A stretch of DNA of 64,000 nucleotides from assembly GCA_945949085.1 (NCBI GenBank), contig CAMFDJ010000005.1, positions 1-64,000 of the forward strand. Direction: 5' to 3'. Shown one piece after another: positions 9,008 through 35,709 of the stretch. Origin of the DNA: an uncultured Lachnospiraceae bacterium (GTDB taxonomy: Bacteria > Bacillota > Clostridia > Lachnospirales > Lachnospiraceae). Within the stretch, counting starts at the first letter, position 1. Every line of letters starts with the position of its first letter. Position numbers and translations under genes: made by a program. The notes beneath the pieces are model-generated. The model ran no database searches and was not told the origin of the DNA. It saw nothing but the letters and a program-made list of their open reading frames with translations.

Positions 9008-11296
9008 ATGAAAATGGAACAAATTAAGGAACTTGTGGGAAAAATGACGCTGGAGGAGAAAGCGGGTCTATGCTCAGGAAGTGATTTCTGGCACACAGAG
9101 GCGGTAGAAAGACTTGGTATTCCAAGTGTTATGGTGTCAGACGGTCCTCACGGACTGCGCAAGCAGGATCAGAACGGAGACCATCTGGGCGTCAACGACA
9201 GTATCAAGGCTGTCTGTTTCCCGACCGGCTGTGGCGCTGCTACATCCTTTAACAGAGAACTGATCGGCAAAATGGGTCAGACGCTCGGCAATGAGTGTCA
9301 GGCAGAGGATGTCAGTGTCATCTTAGGACCGGCAGTCAATATCAAGCGTTCCCCACTCTGCGGACGGAATTTTGAATATTATTCGGAAGATCCGTATCTG
9401 GCAAGCGAGATTGCTACAGCACATATCAATGGCGTGCAGAGTAAACATGTGGGAACCAGCATCAAGCATTTTATGGGCAATAATCAGGAAACAAGGAGAA
9501 TGTCTGTGGATGCGCAGATTGACGAGCGTGCGCTGCATGAAATCTATCTCGGTGCTTTTGAAGGTGCGGTGAGAAATGCAAAGCCATGGACGGTGATGAG
9601 CTCTTATAATAAGGTGAACGGACAGTATGTGGGTGAAAACAAGGAACTGCTCTCAGACATTCTGCGTGACACCTGGGGATTTGACGGCATTGTTGTCAGT
9701 GACTGGGGCGCAGTCAATGACCGCGTGGCAGCACTTGCGGCAGGTATGGATCTGGAAATGCCGGCATCCGGCGGTGTGCGCGATGCACAGATCAAGAGAG
9801 CGGTAGAGACCGGCGTGATTTCTGAGGAGGTGCTTGACGAGGCTTGTGCGCGTATTCTGGATATTGTTTACCGTTACATCGAAAATCGTGATGAGAAGGC
9901 AGTGTTTGATCTTGACGCAGATCATGAGATCGCCAGAGAGATTGCGCATGAATCCATTGTTCTTCTGAAAAATGAAGATGATATCCTGCCGCTTACCAAA
10001 GGAGCGAAAGTCGCATTTATCGGAAAATATGCGCAAAAACCAAGATTCCAGGGAGGCGGAAGCTCTCATATCAATTGTCAGAAAGTAACCTCTGCGCTGG
10101 ATGCCATCGCACAGGCAGGGATTACGAATGTCACATTTGCACAGGGATATGATGATAAGTTTGATGAGATTGATGAGACATTAGAGAAAGAGGCAATTGC
10201 GGCAGCAGTCGCAGCGGATATCGCAGTCGTTTTCGCAGGTCTTCCCGATGCATTTGAGTCAGAAGGCTTTGACAGGGAGCACATGCGTATGCCGGATTGT
10301 CAGAACCATCTGATTGATGAGATAGTAAAGGTGCAGCCCAACACAGTTGTCGTATTGCATAACGGATCCCCCATTGAAATGCCATGGGTCAATGAGGTAA
10401 AGGGTATTGTGGAAGCCTATCTTGGCGGAGAAGCCGTAGGTGGTGCAGTGGTAGATATCCTGTATGGCGATGTAAATCCCAGTGCAAAGCTTGCAGAGTC
10501 TTTCCCTTATCAGCTTGAGGACAACCCATCCTTTTTGAGCGGATTTGGCAGCGGCGATACTGTAAGCTACAGCGAAGGCATTTTTGTCGGATATCGCTAT
10601 TATGATAAGAAGAATATGCCTGTCATGTTCCCGTTTGGATTCGGACTTTCCTATACTACTTTTGATTACAGCAACCTGAAGGTGGATAAGAAAGAACTGA
10701 CAGACAAGGAATGTCTGACAGTCAGCGTAGATGTGACAAACACAGGAAGAGTAGCCGGAAAAGAAGTGGTGGAGCTTTATGTCGCAGACAGGGAGAGTAC
10801 GGTGATCAGACCGATCAAAGAACTCAAAGGCTTTGAAAAGGTTATGCTTCAGCCCGGCGAGACAAAGACTGTGACTTTTACACTGGACAGTCGTGCATTT
10901 GCCTACTACGAGCCGAAAATGAAGGACTGGCATGTGGAATCCGGAGAGTTTGACATTCTGATCGGCAAATCCTCAGAGGATATCGTGCTTTCCGAAACCG
11001 TTGTGGTAAACGGCACAAAGAAGCTGCCTATGTATTATACTGCAAATACCACAATCGGCGATCTGCCACAGACGAGAGAGGTCAAAGAAGCGGTAAAAAC
11101 TGTTCTTGATATATTCAGGCTTGGTGATATCTCTTCCGATGATGAGAATTCGGCTTCTTCCGAAGCAATCACAGAGGAGATGAATGCTGCAATGGAGAAA
11201 TATATGCCACTGCGCGCTGTGATCTCCTTCACGGAAGGGAAAGTGACACCGGATATGGTGGACGAGACTGTCGAGAAATTAAATAAGCTGTCATAA
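9008..11296 (+). CDS. Glycoside hydrolase family 3 beta-glucosidase
   Basis: 762 residues from ATG 9008 behind a strong AAAGGAGG site. No signal peptide is seen, so it should act on sugars brought into the cytoplasm. The GH3 N-terminal barrel includes SDGPHGLRKQ, the substrate-binding SIKHFMGNNQE (K-H pair) and the nucleophile loop GIVVSDWGAV, with Asp232 as predicted nucleophile. The GH3 C-terminal domain (from about residue 310, IVLLKNEDDILPL) follows, then a fibronectin type III-like domain (about 580-650, FPFGFGLSYTTF onwards). About 90 further residues at the C-terminus end TPDMVDETVEKLNKLS. A hairpin terminator follows at 11353. Confidence 0.92.
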   Translation: MKMEQIKELVGKMTLEEKAGLCSGSDFWHTEAVERLGIPSVMVSDGPHGLRKQDQNGDHLGVNDSIKAVCFPTGCGAATSFNRELIGKMGQTLGNECQAEDVSVILGPAVNIKRSPLCGRNFEYYSEDPYLASEIATAHINGVQSKHVGTSIKHFMGNNQETRRMSVDAQIDERALHEIYLGAFEGAVRNAKPWTVMSSYNKVNGQYVGENKELLSDILRDTWGFDGIVVSDWGAVNDRVAALAAGMDLEMPASGGVRDAQIKRAVETGVISEEVLDEACARILDIVYRYIENRDEKAVFDLDADHEIAREIAHESIVLLKNEDDILPLTKGAKVAFIGKYAQKPRFQGGGSSHINCQKVTSALDAIAQAGITNVTFAQGYDDKFDEIDETLEKEAIAAAVAADIAVVFAGLPDAFESEGFDREHMRMPDCQNHLIDEIVKVQPNTVVVLHNGSPIEMPWVNEVKGIVEAYLGGEAVGGAVVDILYGDVNPSAKLAESFPYQLEDNPSFLSGFGSGDTVSYSEGIFVGYRYYDKKNMPVMFPFGFGLSYTTFDYSNLKVDKKELTDKECLTVSVDVTNTGRVAGKEVVELYVADRESTVIRPIKELKGFEKVMLQPGETKTVTFTLDSRAFAYYEPKMKDWHVESGEFDILIGKSSEDIVLSETVVVNGTKKLPMYYTANTTIGDLPQTREVKEAVKTVLDIFRLGDISSDDENSASSEAITEEMNAAMEKYMPLRAVISFTEGKVTPDMVDETVEKLNKLS

Positions 11297-11352
11297 GAGG
11301 TAACATCTTGCAAACAGGATGCATGTGTTGTATGATGATACAAATGCAAAGG

Positions 11353-11388
11353 CGCAGTACTGAAGGAAGGTTTTTGGTACTGCGTTTT
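11353..11388 (+). terminator. Rho-independent terminator after the GH3 gene
   Basis: CGCAGTAC (11353-11360) pairs perfectly with GTACTGCG (11377-11384) and is followed by TTTT. It lies between the glucosidase and the first GGDEF gene, only 25 bases before the latter's start, so that gene must use read-through or a promoter inside this hairpin region. Confidence 0.75.
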
Positions 11389-11412
11389 CCTTGTGGAAAG
11401 GAGAATGGTAAG

Positions 11413-12597
11413 ATGGACCTGGATTTTTATGATCTCTATTATATCCAGACAAATGTCATGTGTATCCTTTTATTGGCTTTTGTGCTGGTAGCTTATGTCA
11501 GAGAAATGCGCGGTGCAGCAGAAGCAGTATATTATAGGGCAGAAATTGTCGGCATCATGATCTACTGCCTGTCAGACATGGCGGCGGCCATTTGCAAGGG
11601 AGAAAACTTTCCGGGAGTCAGACATATTCTTTGGCTGGCTAACACAGTCTATATAGCATTTCCGGCGCTTCTGGTAGTGCTTTGGGGGCACTATATCATT
11701 GCGCATATGAAGAAATATGGATTTTGCAAGAGTTCTTTTGATCGAATATTCAGGGTGCTGGTAATGATTGGTTTTGTAGTAACCATGACGAGTCCTGTGA
11801 CACATTTTGCATTTTATCTGGATGAGAGTAATATGTACCATAGAAATTTTGGTGTATTTCTGGTGCCGGTTCTCAGTTATGTGTATATGATCTATGATAC
11901 GGTCAAGCTGGTTGTGCTCAGTCGAAAAATTGAATCGCTGGAGGGCAGAAGGGAGGCGATAACACTCTCTGTTTTTGTGATCCCCTGTATTCTGTTATCG
12001 CTTCTGCAAATGTTTGTCTACGGATGCACAACCGCACAGGTTGGATTTACACTTGGGTTTATGATCGTTTATCTGGTTGGGCAGCAGAATAAAATCTCCA
12101 AAGATGCACTGACGGGACTGAATAACAGAAGAGAATTTGAACATCAGTTTGATAATATGGTCAAAGGTGCTGAGAAGATTTTGATCTGTATGATTGACGT
12201 TGATTATTTTAAGAGTATCAACGATACGTTCGGTCATGTCGAGGGTGATTCTGCGATAAAGAGCATTGCACTCGTATTGTCCAAAGCCTGTGCAAAGTGT
12301 AAGGGGGAAGGAGACTTTTTTCTATCCCGTTACGGCGGAGATGAATTTGTGATAGTATCGAAAGATTTTAGTGACGGGGCCGATCAAATGCTATCGGATG
12401 CCGTTTTGACTGAACTGAATACATGCAATCTGACAAATGAAAAATCGTATTTGTTGCAGCTTAGTATTGGAACAGCTTATGGGGCGGTAAGTGGCAGGAA
12501 GGATGCAGTTGAGATTATGAAAAAGGCAGATAAAGAGATGTACAGGCAAAAGAAAGCAAAACATTCCAAGCGTGTTTCCGGTGTTCAGATAAGATAA
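11413..12597 (+). CDS. Membrane diguanylate cyclase (GGDEF), copy 1
   Basis: 394 residues. ATG 11413 is chosen because AAGGAG lies 10 bases upstream and because the N-terminus then matches its neighbour (MDLDFYDLYYIQTNVMCILL against [20 protein letters not shown]). Residues 1-235 contain about seven hydrophobic segments forming a membrane sensor. The GGDEF domain begins at [20 protein letters not shown], and its active site RYGGDEF is intact, so synthesis of c-di-GMP is expected. The usual RxxD inhibitory site five residues before the motif is replaced by GEGD, so feedback inhibition by product is probably lost. It is paralogous to the gene at 12798. Confidence 0.88.
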   Translation: MDLDFYDLYYIQTNVMCILLLAFVLVAYVREMRGAAEAVYYRAEIVGIMIYCLSDMAAAICKGENFPGVRHILWLANTVYIAFPALLVVLWGHYIIAHMKKYGFCKSSFDRIFRVLVMIGFVVTMTSPVTHFAFYLDESNMYHRNFGVFLVPVLSYVYMIYDTVKLVVLSRKIESLEGRREAITLSVFVIPCILLSLLQMFVYGCTTAQVGFTLGFMIVYLVGQQNKISKDALTGLNNRREFEHQFDNMVKGAEKILICMIDVDYFKSINDTFGHVEGDSAIKSIALVLSKACAKCKGEGDFFLSRYGGDEFVIVSKDFSDGADQMLSDAVLTELNTCNLTNEKSYLLQLSIGTAYGAVSGRKDAVEIMKKADKEMYRQKKAKHSKRVSGVQIR

Positions 12598-12797
12598 AAA
12601 CTGCTTTTCAGGGAACTTCCCGCTTGGATGAAAGTGTTTTTGTCGAAGCCTGTTATATCTTGCAACATGATAGCCGATATAATAATATAAGGGTAATTGG
12701 CAGAGAACACAGGGAAAGTCTGTGGCAAAATTGTGAGAACTAAGATAAACTAAGGTGAGTGTAGCATAAGGAATCAGACGGGAGATGAGGGCGAAAA

Positions 12798-13964
12798 ATG
12801 AGTCTTGATATTTATGATACCTATTATATCTATTATATTGAAACAAATTTCATTTGTATTCTGTTACTGTCGTTTATTCTGGTGGCATATATCAAAGAGA
12901 TGCGCGCAGCAGCAGAAACCATTTACTATAATGCTGTAATCATGGAAACCATTCTGTATTGTCTGGCGGATATGCTGACGGCTATTTTCAGCGGACAGAA
13001 TCTGCCCGGAGCCAGATTGATCTTATGGTTGTCAAACGCAATCTACATTGCATTTCCGGCACTTTTGGTAGTGACATGGGGACAATACATTGTCATACAT
13101 ATGAAAAGATACGGATTTCAGAAGAGTGTCTTTGAGCGGATTTTCAGAATTTTAGTAATGGCAGGTTTCGTGATCACGCTGTCCAGTCCGGTCACGCACT
13201 TTGCATTTTATCTGGATGCAGGCAATTTTTACCACAGAAATCCGGGCGCTTATGTGGTGCCGATCCTCAGTTATGTATATATGATTTATGATACGGGCAG
13301 ACTTCTGTTGCTCGGTCGGAAGATAGATTCTCTGGAAGGCAGAAGAGAGGCAAAGACATTTTCCATCTTTATTGTGCCGTGTCTTCTTTTCTCGCTGGTG
13401 CAGATGTTTGTTTATGGTTGTACAACGGCTCAGGTGGGCTTTACAATAGGATTTATCATTGTATACATTATCGGGCAGCAAAATAAGATCTCAAAGGATG
13501 CGCTGACGGGACTGAACAACAGAAGAGAATTTGAAAATCAGTTTGACAACATGGCAAAAAATGCAGAGAAGCTTTTGGTGGGTATGATTGATATCGATTT
13601 TTTCAAGAGCATCAATGATACCTACGGTCATGTGGAGGGAGATCAGGCAATCAAAAAAATTTCGCTGGTTCTGGCCAGATCCTGTGCAGCCTGCAAAAAC
13701 GAAGGTGGTTTTTTCCTTTCCCGATACGGTGGCGATGAATTTGTGATTCTGTCAAAGGAATTTAATGAGGGGGCGGATCAGGCACTGATGGATGCGATCA
13801 ATGCCGAGCTTGCTATGGTCAATGAGACAAAGGATACGCCGTATGCGCTATGCGTCAGTATCGGGACTGCGTGTGGACCGGTCACATGCAGGGAGGATGC
13901 GATTGCGATCATGGATAAGGCTGACAGCGAGATGTACAGGGAGAAAAAAGCAAAACATCTGTAA
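12798..13964 (+). CDS. Membrane diguanylate cyclase (GGDEF), copy 2
   Basis: 388 residues from ATG 12798. It is collinear with copy 1 across the whole length, including the membrane part ([20 protein letters not shown]) and the linker [20 protein letters not shown]. The active site RYGGDEF is kept, and the RxxD position reads NEGG. The two genes are a clear tandem duplication separated by 200 bases with a TATAAT at 12678-12683, so each could have its own promoter. The ligand of the membrane part is unknown. Divergence is greatest in the first 60 and last 70 residues. Confidence 0.88.
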
Positions 13965-14050
13965 ATCCCTTAAATCATCTGATACACTTTATCGGAATTT
14001 GTGCTATAATATATCCGAAAAACGTGCACAGGATAAAGGGAGGTATTGCG

Positions 14051-16165
14051 ATGGATCATTTACCGCTTACAGTCAGAGTTCCGATAGAAGAGGACAATCC
14101 CAGCATATGCAGGGATGAAGCAAAATGTATCAAATGTGGCATGTGTAAGGAGGTCTGTACCACACAGATCGGCGTGCATGGGACATACACGCTGGAAGAG
14201 ACGGATGGCAAAGCAGTGTGTATCAACTGTGGGCAGTGTGCAAATGTATGTCCGGTGGGCAGCATAACCGAAAAATACGAATATCAGAATGTGAGAGAGG
14301 CAGTGCAAAATCCGGATCAGATTGTTATTGTCAGCACATCGCCGTCTGTCAGAGCGGCGCTTGGTGAGGAGTTCGGCATGTCGGACGGAGGATTTGTGCA
14401 GGGAAAGATGGTCGCACTTTTGAGAGCGTTGGGGGTCGATTATGTACTTGATACAAATTTTGCTGCCGATCTTACCATTGTGGAGGAGGCGAGTGAGCTC
14501 ATTGAGCGCATCACAAAGCAGACCGCACCGCTTCCACAGTTTACCAGCTGCTGTCCGGCATGGATCAGATATGCGGAGACCTACCACCCGGAGATACTGC
14601 CGCATATTTCTTCTGCAAAGAGCCCGATCGGGATGCAGGGACCGACGATCAAGACTTATTTTGCAAAGAAAGCGGGGATTGACCCCAAAAAGATCGTAAA
14701 TGTGGCGCTGACACCCTGTACGGCCAAGAAATTTGAGATCCGCAGGGATGAGATGTGCGATGCCGGTAAGTATTATGGTGATGATACTATGCGGGATATG
14801 GATATGGTCATCACGACAAGAGAGCTTGCAATGTGGGCAAGGGAAGAAGGCATTGACTTTGCATCTCTTGCAGACAGCGATTATGATAATCTGATGGGAG
14901 AGGCATCGGGAGCTGCCGTAATCTTCGGCAACACAGGTGGTGTCATGGAGGCTGCCCTCAGAACAGCGTATGAATATATCACCGGAGAGAGTGCGCCGGA
15001 TGTGCTTTTCAATCTCACACCGGTCAGAGGCTATGACGGCATCAAGGAGGCAACTGTCAAGGTCGGAGATCTGGATGTCAGTGTTGCAGTGGTATACGGC
15101 ACTGCCAATGCCGAGAGAGTCATCCGGCAGATTCAAAGCGGAGAGAAGCAGTATCATTTTGTGGAAGTCATGACGTGTCCGGGCGGATGTATCGGCGGCG
15201 GTGGTCAGCCAAAGGATATCATGAAGGATAAGGATGCGGTCAGAAAGGCGAGAATCGCAAGCCTGTATACAAAGGATGAGGCAATGACACTCAGGAAGAG
15301 CCATGAAAATCCTGATGTGAAGAGGGTATATGAAGAGTTTTACGGTAAGCCACTGAGTGAGATGGCAGAAAAGATGTTGCATACAGCCTATGAAGATAAA
15401 AGCGGCATTTTCCGAAAAGGCGATCCGGATAAAGCTGTAGAGCAGGAAGGCAAAGAAGAAAGTAAAGAAATTAATAAAGAAGAAAGAACAGGAGACAAAA
15501 AAATGAAGACATGGAAATGTAAGATTTGTGGCTATATTTATGAAGGAGACACCTTACCGGCTGATTTTACCTGTCCGATTTGCAAGCAACCGGCATCTGC
15601 ATTTGAGCCGGTAGGAGGAGCAGAGCCTGCCAACAAATATGCCGGGACACAGACAGAGAAAAATCTGGAGGCAGCCTTTTCCGGAGAGTCAGAGGCCAGA
15701 AATAAATATACCTATTTTGCGTCAGTTGCCAAGAAAGAAGGGTATGAACAGATTGCGGCTCTTTTCTTAAAGACGGCTGAAAATGAGAGAGAACATGCAA
15801 AGATGTGGTTTAAGGAGTTAAACGGAATCGGTGATACGCCTGCAAATCTTGCGGCAGCAGCCGACGGAGAAAATTATGAGTGGACAGATATGTATGAAGG
15901 CTTTGCAAAGACTGCGGAGGCAGAGGGCTTCACAGAACTTGCAGCAAAATTCAGGGCAGTTGGGGAAATTGAGAAACATCATGAGGAGAGATACCGTGCA
16001 CTTTTGAAGAATATTGAGACGTCTCAGGTTTTCAAGAAGAGTGAGGTCAAGGTGTGGGAGTGCCGCAATTGTGGTCATATCGTAGTCGGAACAAAGGCGC
16101 CGGAGGTTTGTCCGGTATGTAATCATCCGCAGAGCTATTTTGAAGTACATGAGGAGAACTATTAA
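14051..16165 (+). CDS. [FeFe]-hydrogenase fused to rubredoxin-rubrerythrin
   Basis: One 704-residue frame joins two enzymes. ATG 14051 follows GGGAGG; GTG 14024 lacks a site. Residues 20-70 carry two 4Fe-4S sites ([23 protein letters not shown]). The H-cluster motifs are L1 TSCCPAW (165-171), L2 TPCTAKKFE (from 221; Thr instead of the usual Met) and L3 [13 protein letters not shown] (Cys376 and Cys380). The hydrogenase ends near residue 460. A Glu/Lys linker leads to a rubredoxin (from 485, [16 protein letters not shown]), a rubrerythrin four-helix diiron domain ([33 protein letters not shown]) and a C-terminal rubredoxin-like knot (CRNCG, CPVC). The likely role is hydrogen metabolism coupled to peroxide reduction. 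An internal ribosome site may also give rubrerythrin alone. Confidence 0.9.
15490..15505 (+). promoter_or_regulatory. Internal ribosome binding site and ATG inside the fusion gene
   Basis: AGGAG (15490-15494), eight bases and ATG (15503-15505) form an ideal start inside the long frame, exactly where the rubredoxin domain begins ([13 protein letters not shown]). A free rubrerythrin of about 220 residues could be made from it. The preceding linker reads like a former intergenic spacer, with TAATAA in another frame. Confidence 0.6.
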
Positions 16166-28141: not shown

Positions 28142-31100
28142 ATGAAGCGGAAAAAAGATTTTGAAATCAGTTTTTTTATTGTGGGATGCATTCTCATGAA
28201 TTATGTGGGAAAGATGGTGGCTGAAAAACTGGCATTGCCTATCTGGCTGGATTCGGTCGGAACCGTTTTTACGGCATATGTGTTTGGACCGGTATGTGGC
28301 GCGATTGTGGGGACGACTGCCAATATCATTTACAGCCTGCACGCTCCGATTGCGTTGTTATACTGCCTTACCAATATTGCTGTCGGTGTCACGGTAGGAA
28401 TTTGTGCAAGAAAAGGGTTTCTGCGGAGCGTTTTTGGGGTGCTATCCACTGCATTTGTTGTCACTGTGCTTTCGGTTGCAATTTCCACACCCCTAAATTA
28501 TATCCTTGCAGACGGCATGACCGGGAATATATGGGGAGACGGCGTGTCAAAAATGCTGCAGGAGATGGGATGTCATACTGTGATCAGCAATATCGTGGGA
28601 GAGTTTTATACGGATTTTTTGGATAAGGTGCTAACGCTCCTTTTATTATTTTTTACGGTTCGCTTGATTAGAGTGAGAAAGCGCAAGGGCGAGACGGATA
28701 CGGAAAAAGGGCATAAGAGTAGCGCTGATGGGACGGAAAAAAGTGTTGCAAGGCTGTTACTTTTACTGCCTGCATTTTTGATGTTTTTGACAAGTACTAC
28801 GGCTTATGCCGAGAACAGTGATTTAGACGAGAAAACAGTGCAGTCTGATTTCAGTCGTTATATCCAGACTGTTTACAATGGGGAAAACGGACTGCCAGGC
28901 GGCGCGTCCAATGATATTGCGCAGACAAAGGATGGTGTTCTGTGGATCGGTACCTATGGTGGTCTGTATCGTTACAGCGGAAACGACTTTAAGTGGATGA
29001 ACGAATTTGAGGCAGTAAAGACAGTGAATTGTCTCTATACGGATGAAGCAGGGAGATTATGGATTGGGACGAATGACAACGGAATTGCCATCTGCACCAA
29101 CCAGAAGATTGTCAATGTGGTCGGTCGCAAGGAAGGGCTTCCTTCAGATTCTGTCCGTTGTATCACGGAAAGCTCGGAGGGGTATTACTATGTCGGCACA
29201 ACAGACAGTCTTGTCGTCATGACGCTGCTCGGCGGTTTGAAGGTGTATGAGACGATACCGGAAATTGTGTATGCTGACAGTATCAGCGCCGATCAAAGCG
29301 GTAATGTTGCGGCGGTTACAAACGAGGGTGACTTCTATCTTTTGCACGGTACGCAGATTGTCACATGCATGACGGCCGAAAAAGCGGGAGAATTCTACAA
29401 CTGTTGTGCTTTTGACGAAGAGGGAAGGCTGTACCTTGGTACTTCTTCAAACCGGATAGAGGTCTACGAGATTGCTGAAAACAGAATAGAAAAACAGACA
29501 ACGTTGGTATGCGGCAAGCTGAAGGATATCAATTCCATTACCATATCGGAAGATCATGTCATCTTTGTCTGCGCGGATAACGGTATCGGGTATCTTCGGA
29601 CAAGGGGAAATTACTGTTCCATTGATTCGGACAGCTTTAACAGCTCTATTGACCATATGCTGATTGATTATCAGGGCAATCTGTGGTTTACTTCCTCCAG
29701 ACTTGGGCTGCTTCGTATGTGTCCGTCTGTTTTTTCGGAGATATATGAAGAAGCCGGGCTTGAAGAGAATGTGGTCAACACGATTACCAAATGGCAGGGA
29801 GATTTGTATTTTGGAACAGATAGCGGGCTGGATGCAATGAGCGCAAAGTTTCTGATTGCAAAGAAGAATGCGATCACACAGATGCTCTCCGGTGTCAGAA
29901 TACGTTGTCTGATGGTGGATTCTGCAAACCATTTGTGGATTTGTACCTCGGGTAAGGGAATTTGTGAAGTGTCTGAGGATGGAGAGGTAAAAATCTATGA
30001 CAGCAAAACAGGTCTGCGGGGAGACAAAATGCGTTCTGCCATGGAGACTGCGGACGGAACCATTGTTGTGGCAGGAGATTCCGGAATTTCATTTATCAAA
30101 GACGGTGTTGTGACAGATACGATCGGCTCTGCGGAAGGGCTTGCAAATCCAAAGGTACTGACACTGTATGAGTGTGCGGACGGCAGTATTCTGGCGGGAA
30201 CGGATGGGAACGGCGTTGCAGTGATCAAGGATGGTCGTGTGACAGATACAATCAGGCAGGAGGACGGGCTCAGTTCAGATATCATTTTGAAGATTGTCCC
30301 CAATTCTGATGATAACGGTTTGTTTATTGTAACATCGAACGGATTGTGCTACGTGCAGGAGGATGGTAGCATCCGTATTTTGGACAATTTTCCGTATTAC
30401 AATAACTTTGATGTCATTGAGGGAAACAACGGTGAATTGTTTGTGCTCAGTTCTGCAGGAATCTATGTGGTTGACAAGGAGGAACTCCTGGCGGGCGGTC
30501 AGCTCAGCTACGAACTGTTGGATGCCAGAAAAGGTCTGCGTCTCGGATTGACACCAAATTCCTTTCCGTATATGGATGAGGAGGACGAACTGTATCTGTG
30601 TGGTGACAGAGGAGTGGTTTGCATTAATCTGAACCAGTATGATATCACCGAGAGATCCTATCGCATGCTGCTTACGCAGATTAAGGTGGATGGGGAAGTC
30701 TATCCCGTGGAAAAGGGAGAGGCCATCCATATTCCACGAGGTGCGGAGAAGATTGATATAACGCCCGAGATTATTAATTTCTCGATTCATGATCCTGAAA
30801 TCCGCATCTATCTGGAAGGGTTTGACAAAATGGGGAGCAGTATGCTGCAGAGCGAAATGAATCACATCATTTACACGAATCTGCCTTCCGGGGAGTACCG
30901 GTTCCACATTGCGGTGCTTGACAGTAAGACAGGTGGTGTGATCGCAGAAAACTCTTATCAGATTATTAAGGAAAAAGAAATCTACGATAACTGGTGGTTC
31001 CGTCTCTACGTGGGCTGCGTGGCCGTATTGTTCATAGCGTATCTGACATGGCTGTTTTTCCGGACACAGATCCAGAAAACGCTCCGTATGCAGCGGATGG

Positions 31101-31744
31101 AACTGGAGTGGACAAAGCGCCAGGTGCAGATGGGCAATGAGACGATTATGACTATCGCGCAGGCGGTCGATGCAAAGGACGAAAATACCAGCCAGCATTC
31201 CGTCCGCGTATCGGAATACTCAGTGATGATCGCGCGCAGGCTCGGCTATGACGATGAGGCGTGTGAGCAGCTGCGACGGACGGCAATCCTGCATGATATC
31301 GGAAAGATCGGAATACCGGACCGCGTACTGAATAAACCGGGAAAACTGACGGATGAGGAATATGTCATCATGAAATCACATGTGGAAAGAGGCGCGGAGA
31401 TCCTTAAAAACTTTACGCTGATCGACCATGTAGAGGAGGGTGTCCTATACCACCATGAGCGGTATGACGGTCGAGGTTATACGCATGGCCTCAAGGGTGA
31501 AGAAATTCCTATAAATGCGCGGATTATCGGAATTGCCGATGCATTTGATGCGATGACTGCTAACCGTGTTTACCGCAAAAAGCTTGATTTTTCGCATGTG
31601 CTTTCTGAAATGGAAAAGGGAAAAGGAACACAGTTTGATCCAAAGCTTGTGGATATTTTGCTCGGACTGATTGAGGATGGCACAATTGATGTCAAACGCA
31701 TGTATCAGACAAGTGACAGTAGGGAGACGAAAGATGAAGGCTGA
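28142..31744 (+). CDS. ECF-S-like / beta-propeller / HD-GYP receptor
   Basis: 1200 residues from ATG 28142, with AAGGA 7 bases upstream. Residues 1-180 are a six-helix membrane domain resembling ECF S components (PIWLDSVGTVFTAYVFGPVC). Residues 201-223 form a second signal-like segment ending TTAYAEN. Residues about 235-840 hold eleven or more propeller repeats with LWIGT-type strands. A Y_Y_Y domain runs to 945, with a membrane helix near 951-975. The C-terminal HD-GYP domain has LHDIGKIGIPD, HHERYDGRGY and DAFDAMTANRVY. The GYP position reads GYTHG. It should degrade c-di-GMP in response to an outside ligand. It overlaps the BMP gene by 11 bases. Confidence 0.88.
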   Translation: MKRKKDFEISFFIVGCILMNYVGKMVAEKLALPIWLDSVGTVFTAYVFGPVCGAIVGTTANIIYSLHAPIALLYCLTNIAVGVTVGICARKGFLRSVFGVLSTAFVVTVLSVAISTPLNYILADGMTGNIWGDGVSKMLQEMGCHTVISNIVGEFYTDFLDKVLTLLLLFFTVRLIRVRKRKGETDTEKGHKSSADGTEKSVARLLLLLPAFLMFLTSTTAYAENSDLDEKTVQSDFSRYIQTVYNGENGLPGGASNDIAQTKDGVLWIGTYGGLYRYSGNDFKWMNEFEAVKTVNCLYTDEAGRLWIGTNDNGIAICTNQKIVNVVGRKEGLPSDSVRCITESSEGYYYVGTTDSLVVMTLLGGLKVYETIPEIVYADSISADQSGNVAAVTNEGDFYLLHGTQIVTCMTAEKAGEFYNCCAFDEEGRLYLGTSSNRIEVYEIAENRIEKQTTLVCGKLKDINSITISEDHVIFVCADNGIGYLRTRGNYCSIDSDSFNSSIDHMLIDYQGNLWFTSSRLGLLRMCPSVFSEIYEEAGLEENVVNTITKWQGDLYFGTDSGLDAMSAKFLIAKKNAITQMLSGVRIRCLMVDSANHLWICTSGKGICEVSEDGEVKIYDSKTGLRGDKMRSAMETADGTIVVAGDSGISFIKDGVVTDTIGSAEGLANPKVLTLYECADGSILAGTDGNGVAVIKDGRVTDTIRQEDGLSSDIILKIVPNSDDNGLFIVTSNGLCYVQEDGSIRILDNFPYYNNFDVIEGNNGELFVLSSAGIYVVDKEELLAGGQLSYELLDARKGLRLGLTPNSFPYMDEEDELYLCGDRGVVCINLNQYDITERSYRMLLTQIKVDGEVYPVEKGEAIHIPRGAEKIDITPEIINFSIHDPEIRIYLEGFDKMGSSMLQSEMNHIIYTNLPSGEYRFHIAVLDSKTGGVIAENSYQIIKEKEIYDNWWFRLYVGCVAVLFIAYLTWLFFRTQIQKTLRMQRMELEWTKRQVQMGNETIMTIAQAVDAKDENTSQHSVRVSEYSVMIARRLGYDDEACEQLRRTAILHDIGKIGIPDRVLNKPGKLTDEEYVIMKSHVERGAEILKNFTLIDHVEEGVLYHHERYDGRGYTHGLKGEEIPINARIIGIADAFDAMTANRVYRKKLDFSHVLSEMEKGKGTQFDPKLVDILLGLIEDGTIDVKRMYQTSDSRETKDEG

Positions 31745-32939
31745 GAATAAACGAAACTATGTAATTACAATAATGAGTGCAGTCGTTGTCATTTTATTTG
31801 CATTTGTGCTCCATTATTTCCTACATGACAGGGATGAAGGGAAGACTGTCAAGGTCGGATTTATCTACGTGGGTGATACCAGCACCGGCTATACCAACAA
31901 TTTTGTCAATGCGCAGAACGCAGTAGAAAAAGCATATGAGGGACGCGTGGAGACTGTTTCCAAATTCAATGTGCCGGAGGATGAGGTGGAAGGCTACTTG
32001 CAGGAGCTGGTTGACGCAGACTGTGATATTATTTTCACAACGAGCTACGGATACGGCGTAAAGGCAAAGGAATATGCCGCGAAATATCCGGATATCCAGT
32101 TTTGTCAGGCAACCTGCAGCAATGCCAATGAAGAGCCGCACCTTGCCAATTATCATACCTATATGGGGAAAATATATCAGGGGAGATATATCAGCGGTGT
32201 TGTTGCGGGTATGAAACTTCAGGAGCTTATCGATACAGGAAAAATTACGCCCAAGCAGGCAAAAATCGGATATGTCGGTGCATATCCGTATGCGGAAGTG
32301 ATTTCGGGGTATACGGCCTTCTTTCTTGGTGTCCGGTCTGTAGTGTCGGAGGCTACCATGACAGTGAAGTATACAAATTCCTGGGAGGATTTTCATCTCG
32401 AGAAGCAGTGTGCGAAGCAGCTGATCGAGGAGGGGTGTATCATTATTTCGCAGCATTCCGATACGGCAGGTCCGGCGATGGCCTGCGAGGAGACGGAACG
32501 TACACAAATCGTCTATTATGTCAGCTACAATGAAAGTATGCGGGATATCGCTCCCACTACCTATCTGACAGGTTCAAAGATTGACTGGGAACCCTATTTC
32601 ATGCAGGCGACAGAGGCTGTTCTTTCGGATAAAGCGATTGAGAAGTGCGTAGGGGCAACGATTAACGGAAATGACGCCGGAGCAGGCTTTGAGCAGGGAT
32701 GGGTACAGATGCTTGAGCTGAATGAATTCGTGGCTGCAAAGGGATCAGCGCAGCGGATCGAGGAACTGATACATGACTTTCGGCAGAACAAGATCACCGT
32801 CTTTCAGGGAGACTATATCGGTGTAGACCCGGAGCATCCGGATGACAGGATTGATCTGAGCGAAGGATATGTTGAGAATGAAACAAGCTCGGCTCCAACC
32901 TTTCACTATATTTTGCAGGATGTGATCACGATCGAGTAG
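31734..32939 (+). CDS. Membrane-anchored BMP-type substrate-binding protein
   Basis: 401 residues from ATG 31734 behind AGGGAG, starting inside the end of the HD-GYP gene. The N-terminus is a single membrane anchor (NYVITIMSAVVVILFAFVLH) without a lipobox cysteine. The rest is a periplasmic-binding fold of the BMP/Med family: VKVGFIYVGDTSTGYTNN, DIIFTTSYGYG, KIGYVGAYPYAEVISGYTAF and ATINGNDAGAGFEQGW. Known members bind purine nucleosides for ABC importers. No permease or ATPase gene is near. Coupling to a receptor and a regulator suggests a sensing partner rather than an importer part (inference). Confidence 0.85.
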   Translation: MKAENKRNYVITIMSAVVVILFAFVLHYFLHDRDEGKTVKVGFIYVGDTSTGYTNNFVNAQNAVEKAYEGRVETVSKFNVPEDEVEGYLQELVDADCDIIFTTSYGYGVKAKEYAAKYPDIQFCQATCSNANEEPHLANYHTYMGKIYQGRYISGVVAGMKLQELIDTGKITPKQAKIGYVGAYPYAEVISGYTAFFLGVRSVVSEATMTVKYTNSWEDFHLEKQCAKQLIEEGCIIISQHSDTAGPAMACEETERTQIVYYVSYNESMRDIAPTTYLTGSKIDWEPYFMQATEAVLSDKAIEKCVGATINGNDAGAGFEQGWVQMLELNEFVAAKGSAQRIEELIHDFRQNKITVFQGDYIGVDPEHPDDRIDLSEGYVENETSSAPTFHYILQDVITIE

Positions 32940-33099
32940 GCGACTTGGGGCATGCGGAGAATAACAGGGCTGCAAATCTGACTGCAAAGGTTGTACATTG
33001 TTCGCAAGGCATAGCTGGGTATGGGGTCTTGTGAGAACAGAAAAATGGAAACAATAGCTGTGATAACAAAAAATATCTTAAAAAGAAAAAGGTGGCAGG

Positions 33100-35520
33100 A
33101 TGCACGTTTCAAGACAAGAACGGATGGAGAGCTTTGACAAAAAACATTATGTGAGACCGCATCTGGCTTACAGTAAGATGAAGCTGGCGGAAGAGAGCGG
33201 GAAAACTGTATGGCTGTATGGCGCGGCCAGTTATGGAAAGACCAGCTTCATCAATTCCTATTTTGGGAACCGTCATATCACATATTTTTCGGCAAATCAG
33301 TTGCAGGAGGCAGATCTGATCACTTCGGAGGAGTTGCGTGGTACCATTGTGATCGACGATCTGCAGACCTTGCTGTGTCCGGATATCTGTCAGGATATCT
33401 GGAAAGCCATAGAAAAGCTTGTCATGAAAGAAGATGCATGGCTTATTTTAATTTCGCGAGGAAAAATCCCGAAGTGGTTGCATGGCACTTTTATCAAGCA
33501 TCCTTTTACGGTCATTGAGGAGAAGGATCTGGAATTATCCGATGCCGAAATTGAGAAGCTGATTCAGAAGTGGGAAGTCCATCTTACAAAGGAGCAGGTG
33601 ACAGCGCTTAGTGTAAGTGCGTTGCACAATGCTTATTTTATCAGTCTGACACTGGCGCATCTGTCAAAGGGAGAGGAATATAAGACGTCGCTTCTGAAGG
33701 TGGTGCAGCAGCAGTTTTGGGATTATCTGGAGCTGCATGTCTATGAACAGTGGGAGCCGCAGATGCAGGATTTTCTGCTCAGGCTTTCGATCGTGGAGCG
33801 CTTTACAGTTCCGATGGCCAGAATGATTACAGGAAAGAATGATGCGGAATATCTGCTGCGTCAAGCTATGGAGATCGGCAATTTTTTGATTGAGCATGTG
33901 GAGGGCGGTATTTGTGAAAACGATCCTGCATCAGTCTCTTACGAAATGCGAAGGACATTGCTTTTATCCCTGCGCAGATGGATGTATAAAAAATATGATG
34001 AAGAAAGAATCAGAACGCTGTATTGTAATGCCGGTTTGTACTATGAGATGAACAATGAACCGCTTAGGGCGCTTGAGATGTATCAGAAGGGGCAGGCAAA
34101 TGATCGAATACTTTGTCTGCTGGTCGAAAATGCAAGAATTGATCCGGGGTCAGGGCATTACTTTGAACTGCGCAAGTTTTATCTGGCATTGCCAAGGGAG
34201 GATATCAGAAAAAATCCCGATCTGATGTGCGGAATGAGTATGCTCAATTCTCTGCTCCTCAATCAGGAGGAGAGTGAGTATTGGTATGGGGAATTGAAAG
34301 CATTTGCCCAGCAGCAGACGGGCAGCCTGTTGCGATATACAAAATCCTTGATTCTCTATTTGGATATCGCACTGCCTCATCGCGGCACTTTTGATTTGAT
34401 TGAGATAATCAAGCATGCCGGAACGCTCCTGGAATGCAGAAAGGTTGTACTACCGGAGTTTTCGGTGACCTCCAATCTGCCCTCGATGATGAACGGTGGC
34501 AAGGATTTTTGTGAGTGGTCCAAAAGTGATGTACAGCTTGCTCGCAGCATCGGTAAGGTTGTGTCTTTCGTGCTCGGAAAATACGGCAAGGGACTTGTGA
34601 ATCTGGCACTGGCGGAGAGCTTTTTTGAAAAGGGAGCAGACCGCTATGAGGTGGCTGCGCTGCTTGCGAACGGCAGAATGCAGGCTGACAGCGGGGGAAA
34701 GCTGGAGCAGGTCTTTGTGGCGGACGGTCTGATGGCATGGCAGTCTGTTTTTGATGGAAAACTGACATTCGCGAAAGACCGATTGGAGAGTTTCTATAAA
34801 AAGGCTGAGGCAGAACGTGAGGAAAAGCTGATTCCGAATATTGAAACGTTTCTGGTACGACTTGAACTTTACAGCGGTAATATCGCGGTCGCACTTCGCT
34901 GGATGGAAAGTGCTCCCGACGAAAATGTAGAGTTTATATCCATTTACCGGTTCCATTATTTGACAAAGGTACGTATCTATCTGTGCACCGGCAAATATGA
35001 GCTTGCGGTGGATCTTTTGCAAAAGCTTTTGTATTATACGGAAGTCATGAAGCGCACCTTCGTCAGGATGGAGTGCGAGCTGTTGCTCGCCATCACGCAG
35101 CAGAGAATGGGTTATGACGGATGGGATGAAACATTGCAAAGGTGTCTTGATGAGGCACAGGAGTATCATTTTGTGCGGCTTGTCACAAGGGAGGCCGGAG
35201 CAGCTTATAAGCTGCTCAAGATGACTGCATGGAAGCCGCAGGATAAGACCTTTTATAAGGAGCTTTTGGAGGAAGCAGGGCGTATGGAGAAATTCTATCC
35301 CGCTTATCTGAAGACCGGAGTGAAGGAAGTGGTGCTCGGTGAGAATGCACTGGCAATCCTAAAGCTCCAGGCAGAGGGATTATCTGTGGCACAGATTGCC
35401 AAACGGCTCCACATTCAGGAGGGAACTGTCAAATACCACAGCTCTCAGACCTACCAGAAGCTCGGCGTCAAGGACAAATCCGGCGCTGTAGCGGAAGCCT
35501 ACCGGAGAGGGCTGATATAG
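33100..35520 (+). CDS. MalT-like STAND/LuxR transcriptional regulator
   Basis: 806 residues from ATG 33100, with AGGTGG in front. Residues about 35-55 hold a P-loop, WLYGAASYGKTSFINS, and a Walker B-like TIVIDDLQTLL lies near 85. A middle region of helical repeats (about 290-720) resembles the TPR-like sensor of MalT. The C-terminus is a LuxR helix-turn-helix (LKLQAEGLSVAQIAKRLHIQ, EGTVKYHSSQTYQKLGVKDK). Such regulators switch on with ATP and an inducer. It follows the BMP gene by 160 bases and may control the receptor module or its targets. No inducer can be named. Confidence 0.85.
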   Translation: MHVSRQERMESFDKKHYVRPHLAYSKMKLAEESGKTVWLYGAASYGKTSFINSYFGNRHITYFSANQLQEADLITSEELRGTIVIDDLQTLLCPDICQDIWKAIEKLVMKEDAWLILISRGKIPKWLHGTFIKHPFTVIEEKDLELSDAEIEKLIQKWEVHLTKEQVTALSVSALHNAYFISLTLAHLSKGEEYKTSLLKVVQQQFWDYLELHVYEQWEPQMQDFLLRLSIVERFTVPMARMITGKNDAEYLLRQAMEIGNFLIEHVEGGICENDPASVSYEMRRTLLLSLRRWMYKKYDEERIRTLYCNAGLYYEMNNEPLRALEMYQKGQANDRILCLLVENARIDPGSGHYFELRKFYLALPREDIRKNPDLMCGMSMLNSLLLNQEESEYWYGELKAFAQQQTGSLLRYTKSLILYLDIALPHRGTFDLIEIIKHAGTLLECRKVVLPEFSVTSNLPSMMNGGKDFCEWSKSDVQLARSIGKVVSFVLGKYGKGLVNLALAESFFEKGADRYEVAALLANGRMQADSGGKLEQVFVADGLMAWQSVFDGKLTFAKDRLESFYKKAEAEREEKLIPNIETFLVRLELYSGNIAVALRWMESAPDENVEFISIYRFHYLTKVRIYLCTGKYELAVDLLQKLLYYTEVMKRTFVRMECELLLAITQQRMGYDGWDETLQRCLDEAQEYHFVRLVTREAGAAYKLLKMTAWKPQDKTFYKELLEEAGRMEKFYPAYLKTGVKEVVLGENALAILKLQAEGLSVAQIAKRLHIQEGTVKYHSSQTYQKLGVKDKSGAVAEAYRRGLI

Positions 35521-35530
35521 GTTCAAACTT

Positions 35531-35549
35531 TAGGGGCGCTTCTTTAAGG
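35531..35549. repeat. Half copy of the AGGGACG repeat
   Basis: TAGGGGCGCTTCTTTAAGGG (35531-35550) resembles the left end of the element at 36176-36208 (AGGGACGCTTCTTTTGTCCC). It abuts the start of the leucine-rich-repeat remnant. Confidence 0.4.
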
Positions 35550-35630
35550 GAATTTACCAAGAGTACCACCATCAAAGTGCCAAAGAAGAAGCTTGCCGCA
35601 TATAAGAAGTTATTTAAGCAAAAGGACTTT
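35550..35630 (+). pseudogene. C-terminal scrap of a BspA-type leucine-rich repeat surface protein
   Basis: The frame reads EFTKSTTIKVPKKKLAAYKK then LFKQKDF. This is the recurrent last segment of LRR_5/BspA surface proteins in Lachnospiraceae (IKVPKKKL-AYKKLFKKKGF). No repeats precede it, and after residue 27 the frame continues to TAA 35703-35705 with unrelated sequence. It looks like debris of a deleted surface protein gene joined to a short repeat. Confidence 0.4.
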
Positions 35631-35709
35631 CTTCCGATGACTGGAATCAGTATGGCGGTTTTTTATCTTTTGACATTTGAAAATGTGAACAGAAAGAGAG
35701 TTTAACAAT

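Follow-up and report, generated by a model that had tools for sequence, protein, structure and literature searches.

In the NspS-MbaA polyamine receptor system of Vibrio cholerae, a binding protein of the PotD type acts together with a membrane protein that has a GGDEF-EAL output. The binding protein, which is periplasmic, joins this c-di-GMP enzyme of the membrane and controls how active it is, as described in parts of PMC8967002, and the system is the closest analogue of the locus reported here. Receptors gated by binding proteins are already accepted as a class, with NspS-MbaA as the c-di-GMP enzyme so gated, and passages of PMC9602780 describe the activation of receptors by binding proteins, including that of c-di-GMP enzymes, as widespread. 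Purine sensors of the dCache type that alter c-di-GMP are also known (PMC11245519, in part), and two members of the GdpX series of Xanthomonas are listed as having Reg_prop with Y_Y_Y, of unknown function (PMC6637768, in part). The main text of a census of c-di-GMP sensing contains no mention of purine, propeller or ECF (PMC8846402), and a survey of gut receptors and their ligands contains no mention of solute-binding, xanthine or propeller (PMC12415202). Among the matches listed, no description of the receptor-BMP pair analysed below was found in the open-licence literature.

Here, we describe a locus of an uncultured Lachnospiraceae bacterium in which a gene for a large membrane receptor overlaps a gene for a BMP-family binding protein. 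We consider it fairly probable that this two-gene unit (positions 28142-32939) encodes a BMP protein that captures a purine base, likely docks on the propeller of the receptor and switches a predicted c-di-GMP phosphodiesterase.

Organization of the locus

The window, that is, the whole stretch of 64,000 nucleotides that was analysed, contains three consecutive genes that a sequence-only reading had taken for one sensing module. Open frames at the following coordinates bear out the places that it gave for the three genes and the overlap of 11 bases between the first two.

28142..31744, + strand: receptor gene, 1200 amino acids; open frame with S-component-like helices, propeller, Y_Y_Y domain, transmembrane segment and HD-GYP domain
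28187..28672, + strand: ECF S-component-like domain of the receptor, residues 16-177 (NF045596, 79.1 bits, cut-off 180)
28829..30631, + strand: beta-propeller region of Reg_prop repeats, about residues 230-830 (Reg_prop, 84 bits; limits set by eye)
30809..30931, + strand: Y_Y_Y domain, residues 890-930 (22.6 bits, under the cut-off of 26.6)
31004..31060, + strand: hydrophobic segment, residues 955-973; membrane helix predicted from hydropathy between ectodomain and output
31157..31648, + strand: HD-GYP output domain, residues 1006-1169 (PF13487, 144.7 bits)
31734..31744, + strand: overlap of the receptor and BMP genes, 11 bases; the BMP start codon is the ATG at 31734
31734..32939, + strand: BMP-family binding protein, 401 amino acids from the ATG at 31734 (PF02608)
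31758..31814, + strand: hydrophobic segment at the N-terminus of the BMP protein, residues 9-27; predicted to remain uncleaved as an anchor, without a lipobox-like motif
33100..35520, + strand: MalT-like LuxR regulator, 806 amino acids; lineage-specific neighbour outside the conserved pair

The BMP gene has a GGGAG of its own 7 bases before its ATG, and 160 bases separate it from the regulator gene. Neither the promoter scan (5 sites versus 12.1 in shuffled sequences) nor the terminator scan (6 versus 6.1) gave an excess of sites. Elsewhere in the window, at 14024-16165, a frame of 713 residues matches [FeFe] hydrogenase in its first part and rubrerythrin in its last.

Conservation of the receptor-BMP pair

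The family sample consisted of 120 genomes, one per genus, the genome of the window included. Receptors were counted as being of the window type if they were full-length and at least 45% identical, with at most about five candidates scored per genome. By this definition, and among the matches listed, such a receptor is present in 13 of the 120 genomes and the receptor-BMP pair in 12, that is, in 12 of the 13 carriers. In one pair genome (G112), contig ends truncate the BMP frame; in the remaining carrier (G009), no BMP gene adjoins the receptor gene.

When named genomes were scanned with the BMP alignment, at least 567 related stretches were found, of which the best 80 were kept. All of these 80 loci have a receptor frame directly upstream of the BMP gene and on the same strand; the gap between the longest frames ranges from -112 to +57 bases, with an overlap in 62 of the 80. 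The hosts named for these best 80 of at least 567 are Lachnospiraceae, other Clostridia and Treponema, including the isolate T. bryantii B25, although single host names may be wrong because many of the kept stretches come from metagenome assemblies. Thus, the gene order of the proposed module is conserved in its receptor-to-BMP part, with the two genes adjacent in the best 80 of at least 567 loci and in 12 of the 13 sample genomes. The conserved unit is the tightly coupled receptor and BMP gene, to the exclusion of the regulator, and it occurs in numerous bacteria of gut and rumen. Among distant receptors of the same build, none of the six that were read (L080-L085) has an adjoining BMP gene, and this type of ectodomain can therefore work without a BMP protein.

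The outputs of the receptors in the kept loci are HD-GYP domains in 78 cases and kinases in two (best 80 of at least 567). In these two loci (L113 and L136), an ectodomain of the window type is joined to an output of HisKA, HATPase and receiver domains, with the BMP gene directly behind. We built a FastTree phylogeny over 934 columns from 45 ectodomains, 38 from receptors of the clade and 7 from others, hand-chosen from the best 80 of at least 567 loci and from 13 other loci, five of which belong to sample genomes outside the 80, including G009. In this tree of 45 sequences, receptors of the window type group together with a support of 0.797, L113 joins L136 at 1.0, and both fall with the window into one node of 17 with a support of 0.997, that is, the kinase receptors are nested in the paired clade. 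The receptor of G009 is also nested there, as if its BMP gene had been lost. Since the BMP gene is kept behind the ectodomain when the output changes, it tracks the ectodomain and not the output, and this retention is the best sign of an input role for the BMP protein.

Domain architecture and output of the receptor

Pfam identifies HD_5 (144.7 bits), HD (86 bits) and Reg_prop (84 bits) in the receptor, along with a sub-threshold match to Y_Y_Y, and the receptor profile matches solved structures of HD-GYP proteins (5z7c, 4mcw and 4r8z) and of two-component propeller sensors (4a2l, 3v9f and 3ott). The description as a propeller/HD-GYP receptor therefore stands, but it overlooked the N-terminus, which resembles an ECF S-component. 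This part is present in 73 of the 80 kept loci, the frames of the remaining seven running into a contig end, and the propeller and the HD-GYP domain are each found in 78 of the 80 receptors (best 80 of at least 567). On contig C13 of the window's genome (L050, 3890-8770) lies a paralogue of the receptor, which has the S-component-like part and the propeller in its ectodomain as well. The output of this paralogue is a hybrid histidine kinase with Hpt, no BMP gene adjoins it, and it matches PF12822 and PF07155, both under the cut-off.

Eight residues of the HD-GYP domain (H1019, H1051, D1052, K1055, H1080, H1104, H1105 and D1133), which we take to be metal-binding or catalytic in HD-GYP enzymes, are identical in 73 of 73 receptors, a set formed from the best 80 of at least 567 loci by keeping receptors of more than 1000 residues and leaving out the two kinases. 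Within the GYP signature, G and Y are likewise present in all 73 receptors (best 80 of at least 567), whereas the third residue, a T in the window, varies: 24 receptors have V, 15 have A, 15 have P, 7 have T and 12 have another residue. The genome of the window yields 28 GGDEF and 21 HD matches, and c-di-GMP signalling is therefore likely to be present. The best solved relative of the domain, 5z7c, is by name a 3'3'-cGAMP-specific phosphodiesterase, which would fit an enzyme that acts on 3'3'-cGAMP rather than on c-di-GMP. However, the next relatives are by name a metal-dependent phosphohydrolase (4mcw) and a c-di-GMP phosphodiesterase (4r8z), and together with the numerous GGDEF matches they make 3'3'-cGAMP a quite improbable substrate. 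If c-di-GMP is the substrate, as we predict, a ligand that lowers its level represents one of two possible directions.

The MalT-like regulator

The product of the third gene matches a LuxR-type HTH domain (45.2 bits) and, below the threshold, the MalT TPR region in Pfam. Its score against the MalT equivalog NF003420 is 49.9 bits at a cut-off of 537, and it is thus MalT-like, not MalT. Relatives of the regulator were found in the flanks of at least 6 of the 80 kept loci (best 80 of at least 567), a lower bound because some loci end before the place of a possible downstream gene. In four of them (L089-L092), which contain the nearest relatives (88-98% identity), the gene lies downstream of the pair, whereas in L094 and L095 a relative with 36% identity is located upstream of the receptor gene. 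Across the family sample, 18 of the 120 genomes have a match to the regulator; among the 11 other pair genomes, G112 alone has one, on another contig.

The view that receptor, BMP protein and regulator act as one sensing system draws on the gene order kept in the four nearest loci, in one of which (L091) the BMP frame and the regulator are 57 bases apart, compared with 160 in the window, the middle part of the gap being missing; co-transcription is therefore likely in that locus. The 36% relatives directly upstream of the receptor gene, and a regulator paralogue with 42% identity about 4 kb from the second BMP gene of the window's genome (L049), are compatible with the same view. Against it, relatives flank few of the loci and are nearly absent from the other pair genomes, as detailed above, and two of them adjoin repeat-rich proteins of a surface type: in G082, a BspA-type repeat protein (L069, 2767-5136) comes after the relative, and in G017 a frame of 425 residues and then a Listeria-Bacteroides repeat protein. 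A joint three-gene system is, in our assessment, very improbable, and the module of the sequence-only reading has to be reduced to its first two genes. The regulator is better described as a lineage-specific neighbour, likely co-transcribed with the pair in close relatives of the window, and sensing itself would not require it. By eye, a short open stretch behind the regulator (window 35532-35706) resembles the C-terminal end of the BspA-type protein of G082 and may be the remnant of a surface-protein gene.

Binding pocket and likely ligand

The binding protein belongs to the Bmp family (PF02608, 89.6 bits, cut-off 24.1), as had been read from its resemblance to nucleoside-binding proteins, but its pocket matches binders of purine bases instead. 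The closest solved relatives of the paired BMP proteins are 3s99 and AtzT (6pi5); other structures, among them Med (2hqb) and an entry for a Borrelia BMP, rank far lower. According to parts of PMC6834077, AtzT holds guanine through Ser97, the backbone of Phe98, Glu165, Asn218 and Asn220, between Tyr45 and Trp194, and adenine was modelled in 3s99. In the BMP protein of the window, Y53, S104, Y105, E188, W217, H241 and D243 align with AtzT Tyr45, Ser97, Phe98, Glu165, Trp194, Asn218 and Asn220, respectively, and the residues of 3s99 at these seven positions are W, S, F, E, W, H and D. Of 81 paired sequences (scan best 80 of at least 567), 80 or all 81 retain Y53, S104, E188, W217, H241 and D243, and 70 have Y in the column of Phe98, a conservation that is partly forced because the scan patterns contain E188, H241 and D243. 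In an alignment of 11 sequences that were not found by these patterns (A1), Y53, E188, W217 and D243 are present in all 11, H241 in 10 and S104 in 9.

The six residues Y, S, E, W, H and D are shared by all 12 BMP proteins encoded with a transporter (this grouping omits L192, L193 and L187, the last of which has its transporter at a contig end, and it places L177, which has three BMP genes and an MCP-like frame on the opposite strand, with the MCP set). Directly upstream of five of these 12 genes (L067, L068, L185, L203 and L204) lies a gene for xanthine phosphoribosyltransferase, named by NCBIfam above the cut-off in four of the five cases, which occurs nowhere else among the 157 stretches read, some of them overlapping. 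No additional hint of the ligand came from the remaining genes beside the transporter-type loci. No purine riboswitch was detected at the gathering threshold in nine transporter-type loci or in the window, nor, up to an E-value of 0.1, in four loci with xanthine phosphoribosyltransferase. At the window locus itself, no purine gene adjoins, and the presence of purC 6 kb upstream is taken as chance.

Because the pocket residues match 3s99 and AtzT, and because transporter relatives with the same pocket adjoin xanthine phosphoribosyltransferase, a purine base is the likely class of ligand and a better guess than a nucleoside. The nucleoside of the sequence-only reading was set aside, given that the best solved relatives bind bases and that the phenylalanine pair of PnrA and BmpD differs from the Tyr/Trp pair seen here. 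It is also conceivable that the same pair works by the same mechanism with a ligand other than a purine base, such as a nucleoside, a sugar or another ring compound. The lack of an adjoining purine gene at the window locus would fit this, as would the sugar binding predicted for Bmp proteins by one survey (PMC9602780, in part) and the location of many propeller receptors of this build near sugar genes (GH16 in L080, GH94 in L083). However, adenine and guanine are held by the nearest solved relatives, and the pocket residues are common to the relatives beside xanthine phosphoribosyltransferase, so that we find such a ligand rather unlikely and retain a purine base as the predicted one.

Relationship to transporters

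Proteins of the BMP family are classically parts of transporters, and the paired protein might serve a purine ABC transporter encoded elsewhere, with its gene placed behind the receptor gene for co-regulation only. The pocket, which is the same in transporter BMP proteins, would permit this, and a BMP-type permease is present in 3 of the 12 pair genomes, with strong matches in G083 and G039 and a weak one in G079. However, the permease query found no match in the other 9 of the 12, including G008, G086 and G116 at 99-100% completeness, and in G039 and G083 the transporter comes with a BMP gene of its own. In G116 (99% complete) and G112, the single Bmp-family match is the paired BMP protein. 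At the window locus, the ATPase and the two BMP-type permeases are absent, and the query had no match in the assembly of the window either (G000, 84.7% complete), in line with the claim that the BMP protein stands without a transporter. An ABC permease operon elsewhere in this assembly that would use the BMP protein did not emerge, as each of the five PF02653 permease matches lies in an operon with another binding protein.

The predicted mode of anchoring also differs. A lipobox-like motif, scored with a pattern devised in this analysis, was found in 5 of 80 paired BMP proteins (best 80 of at least 567) versus 11 of 12 transporter BMP proteins; it is present in 5 of 6 BMP proteins with an MCP neighbour and in none of 14 encoded in tandem. 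By criteria devised here, no special surface distinguishes the paired proteins, as position 144 alone separates them from transporter BMP proteins, and the C-terminus carries no clear mark that sets the two groups apart. Considering also that the BMP gene stays with the ectodomain despite a changed output, we regard service to a distant transporter as decidedly unlikely and favour the role of the BMP protein as a partner of the receptor.

Other BMP genes without a permease

In six loci, BMP genes without a permease adjoin MCP-like genes (L049, in the genome of the window, L182, L188, L189, L190 and L191), the MCP domains being shown by Pfam for L049. In this locus (10636-13573; G000, contig C10), the second permease-less BMP gene of the genome lies beside genes for a chemoreceptor (sCache_3_3, MCPsignal) and for a PocR-MCP protein. 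The receptor-BMP pair of L095 and that of L098 are directly followed by another BMP gene and by an MCP gene, as identified by Pfam. Furthermore, tandem BMP genes are directly followed by a hybrid histidine kinase gene in 7 of 7 loci tested (L178-L181 and L194-L196). Both the BMP-MCP and the tandem-BMP/kinase arrangements are known as neighbour relations only. A gene with SBP_bac_3, GGDEF and EAL domains also lies nearby in L178. Three of the pair genomes (G008, G002 and G079) encode long proteins of 635-663 amino acids (L197, 4018-5952; L198, 3583-5574; L199, 3800-5707); in those of L197 and L199, Pfam places a Bmp domain in the C-terminal half, and the N-terminal part has no Pfam match.

A broader reading of these arrangements is tentative, and we hold it to be unlikely as a whole. 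Purine-base-binding BMP proteins of gut and rumen Clostridia would be exchangeable co-receptors for a single cue, feeding c-di-GMP hydrolysis when paired with HD-GYP receptors, phosphorelays through the kinase receptors and the tandem-BMP/hybrid-kinase loci, and chemotaxis through BMP-MCP pairs. In the HD-GYP branch, the BMP protein would hand the purine to a former transporter S-component, and this receptor part would report purine occupancy instead of importing the ligand.

Predicted mechanism and comparison with known systems

In the mechanism that we favour for the two-gene unit, the anchored BMP protein would capture an extracellular purine base and dock on the propeller of the receptor, and the docked protein would then switch the predicted HD-GYP phosphodiesterase. 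We infer the ligand, the docking, c-di-GMP as the substrate and the direction of the response from the genes and their relatives. If this is true, a BMP-family protein and an HD-GYP output join the class of binding-protein-gated receptors, a likely class of ligand is assigned to an uncharacterized receptor that is common in Lachnospiraceae and rumen Treponema, and extracellular purines are linked to c-di-GMP in major gut bacteria. The natural change of output, along with the BMP-MCP and tandem-BMP/kinase arrangements, opens the input role of BMP proteins to direct tests.

Parts of this architecture recur in described systems. The Bacteroides hybrid two-component systems (4a2l, 3v9f and 3ott) likewise have a Reg_prop/Y_Y_Y ectodomain before the membrane helix, but here the N-terminus is S-component-like, the output is HD-GYP and the binding protein is separate. 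Med (2hqb), named a transcriptional activator of the comK gene, is Bmp-related and regulatory by name, although its match is weak (E 1.2e-6), and we know of no receptor partner of this type for it. With AtzT and 3s99, the BMP protein of the window shares the sandwich of Tyr or Trp with Trp, the Ser and the Glu, and its H241 and D243, which take the place of AtzT Asn218 and Asn220, are the His and Asp of 3s99; it differs from both in being a predicted anchored receptor partner. PnrA and BmpD belong to the same Pfam family, PF02608, and rank lower or are absent among the solved relatives of the paired BMP proteins; their pocket sandwiches the base between a pair of phenylalanines and also holds the ribose (PMC7093131, in part). 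The dCache_1 purine sensors tie extracellular purine sensing to the turnover of a second messenger, as predicted here, but they bind the ligand through the receptor's own Cache domain, whereas in the present case a separate BMP protein is predicted to do so (PMC11245519, in part). As in NspS-MbaA, a binding-protein gene is paired with the gene of a membrane protein, here a predicted c-di-GMP enzyme. The output of NspS-MbaA both makes and degrades c-di-GMP (PMC8967002, in part), whereas that of the present receptor is an HD-GYP domain, combined with a Bmp-family protein and a propeller and S-component-like ectodomain.
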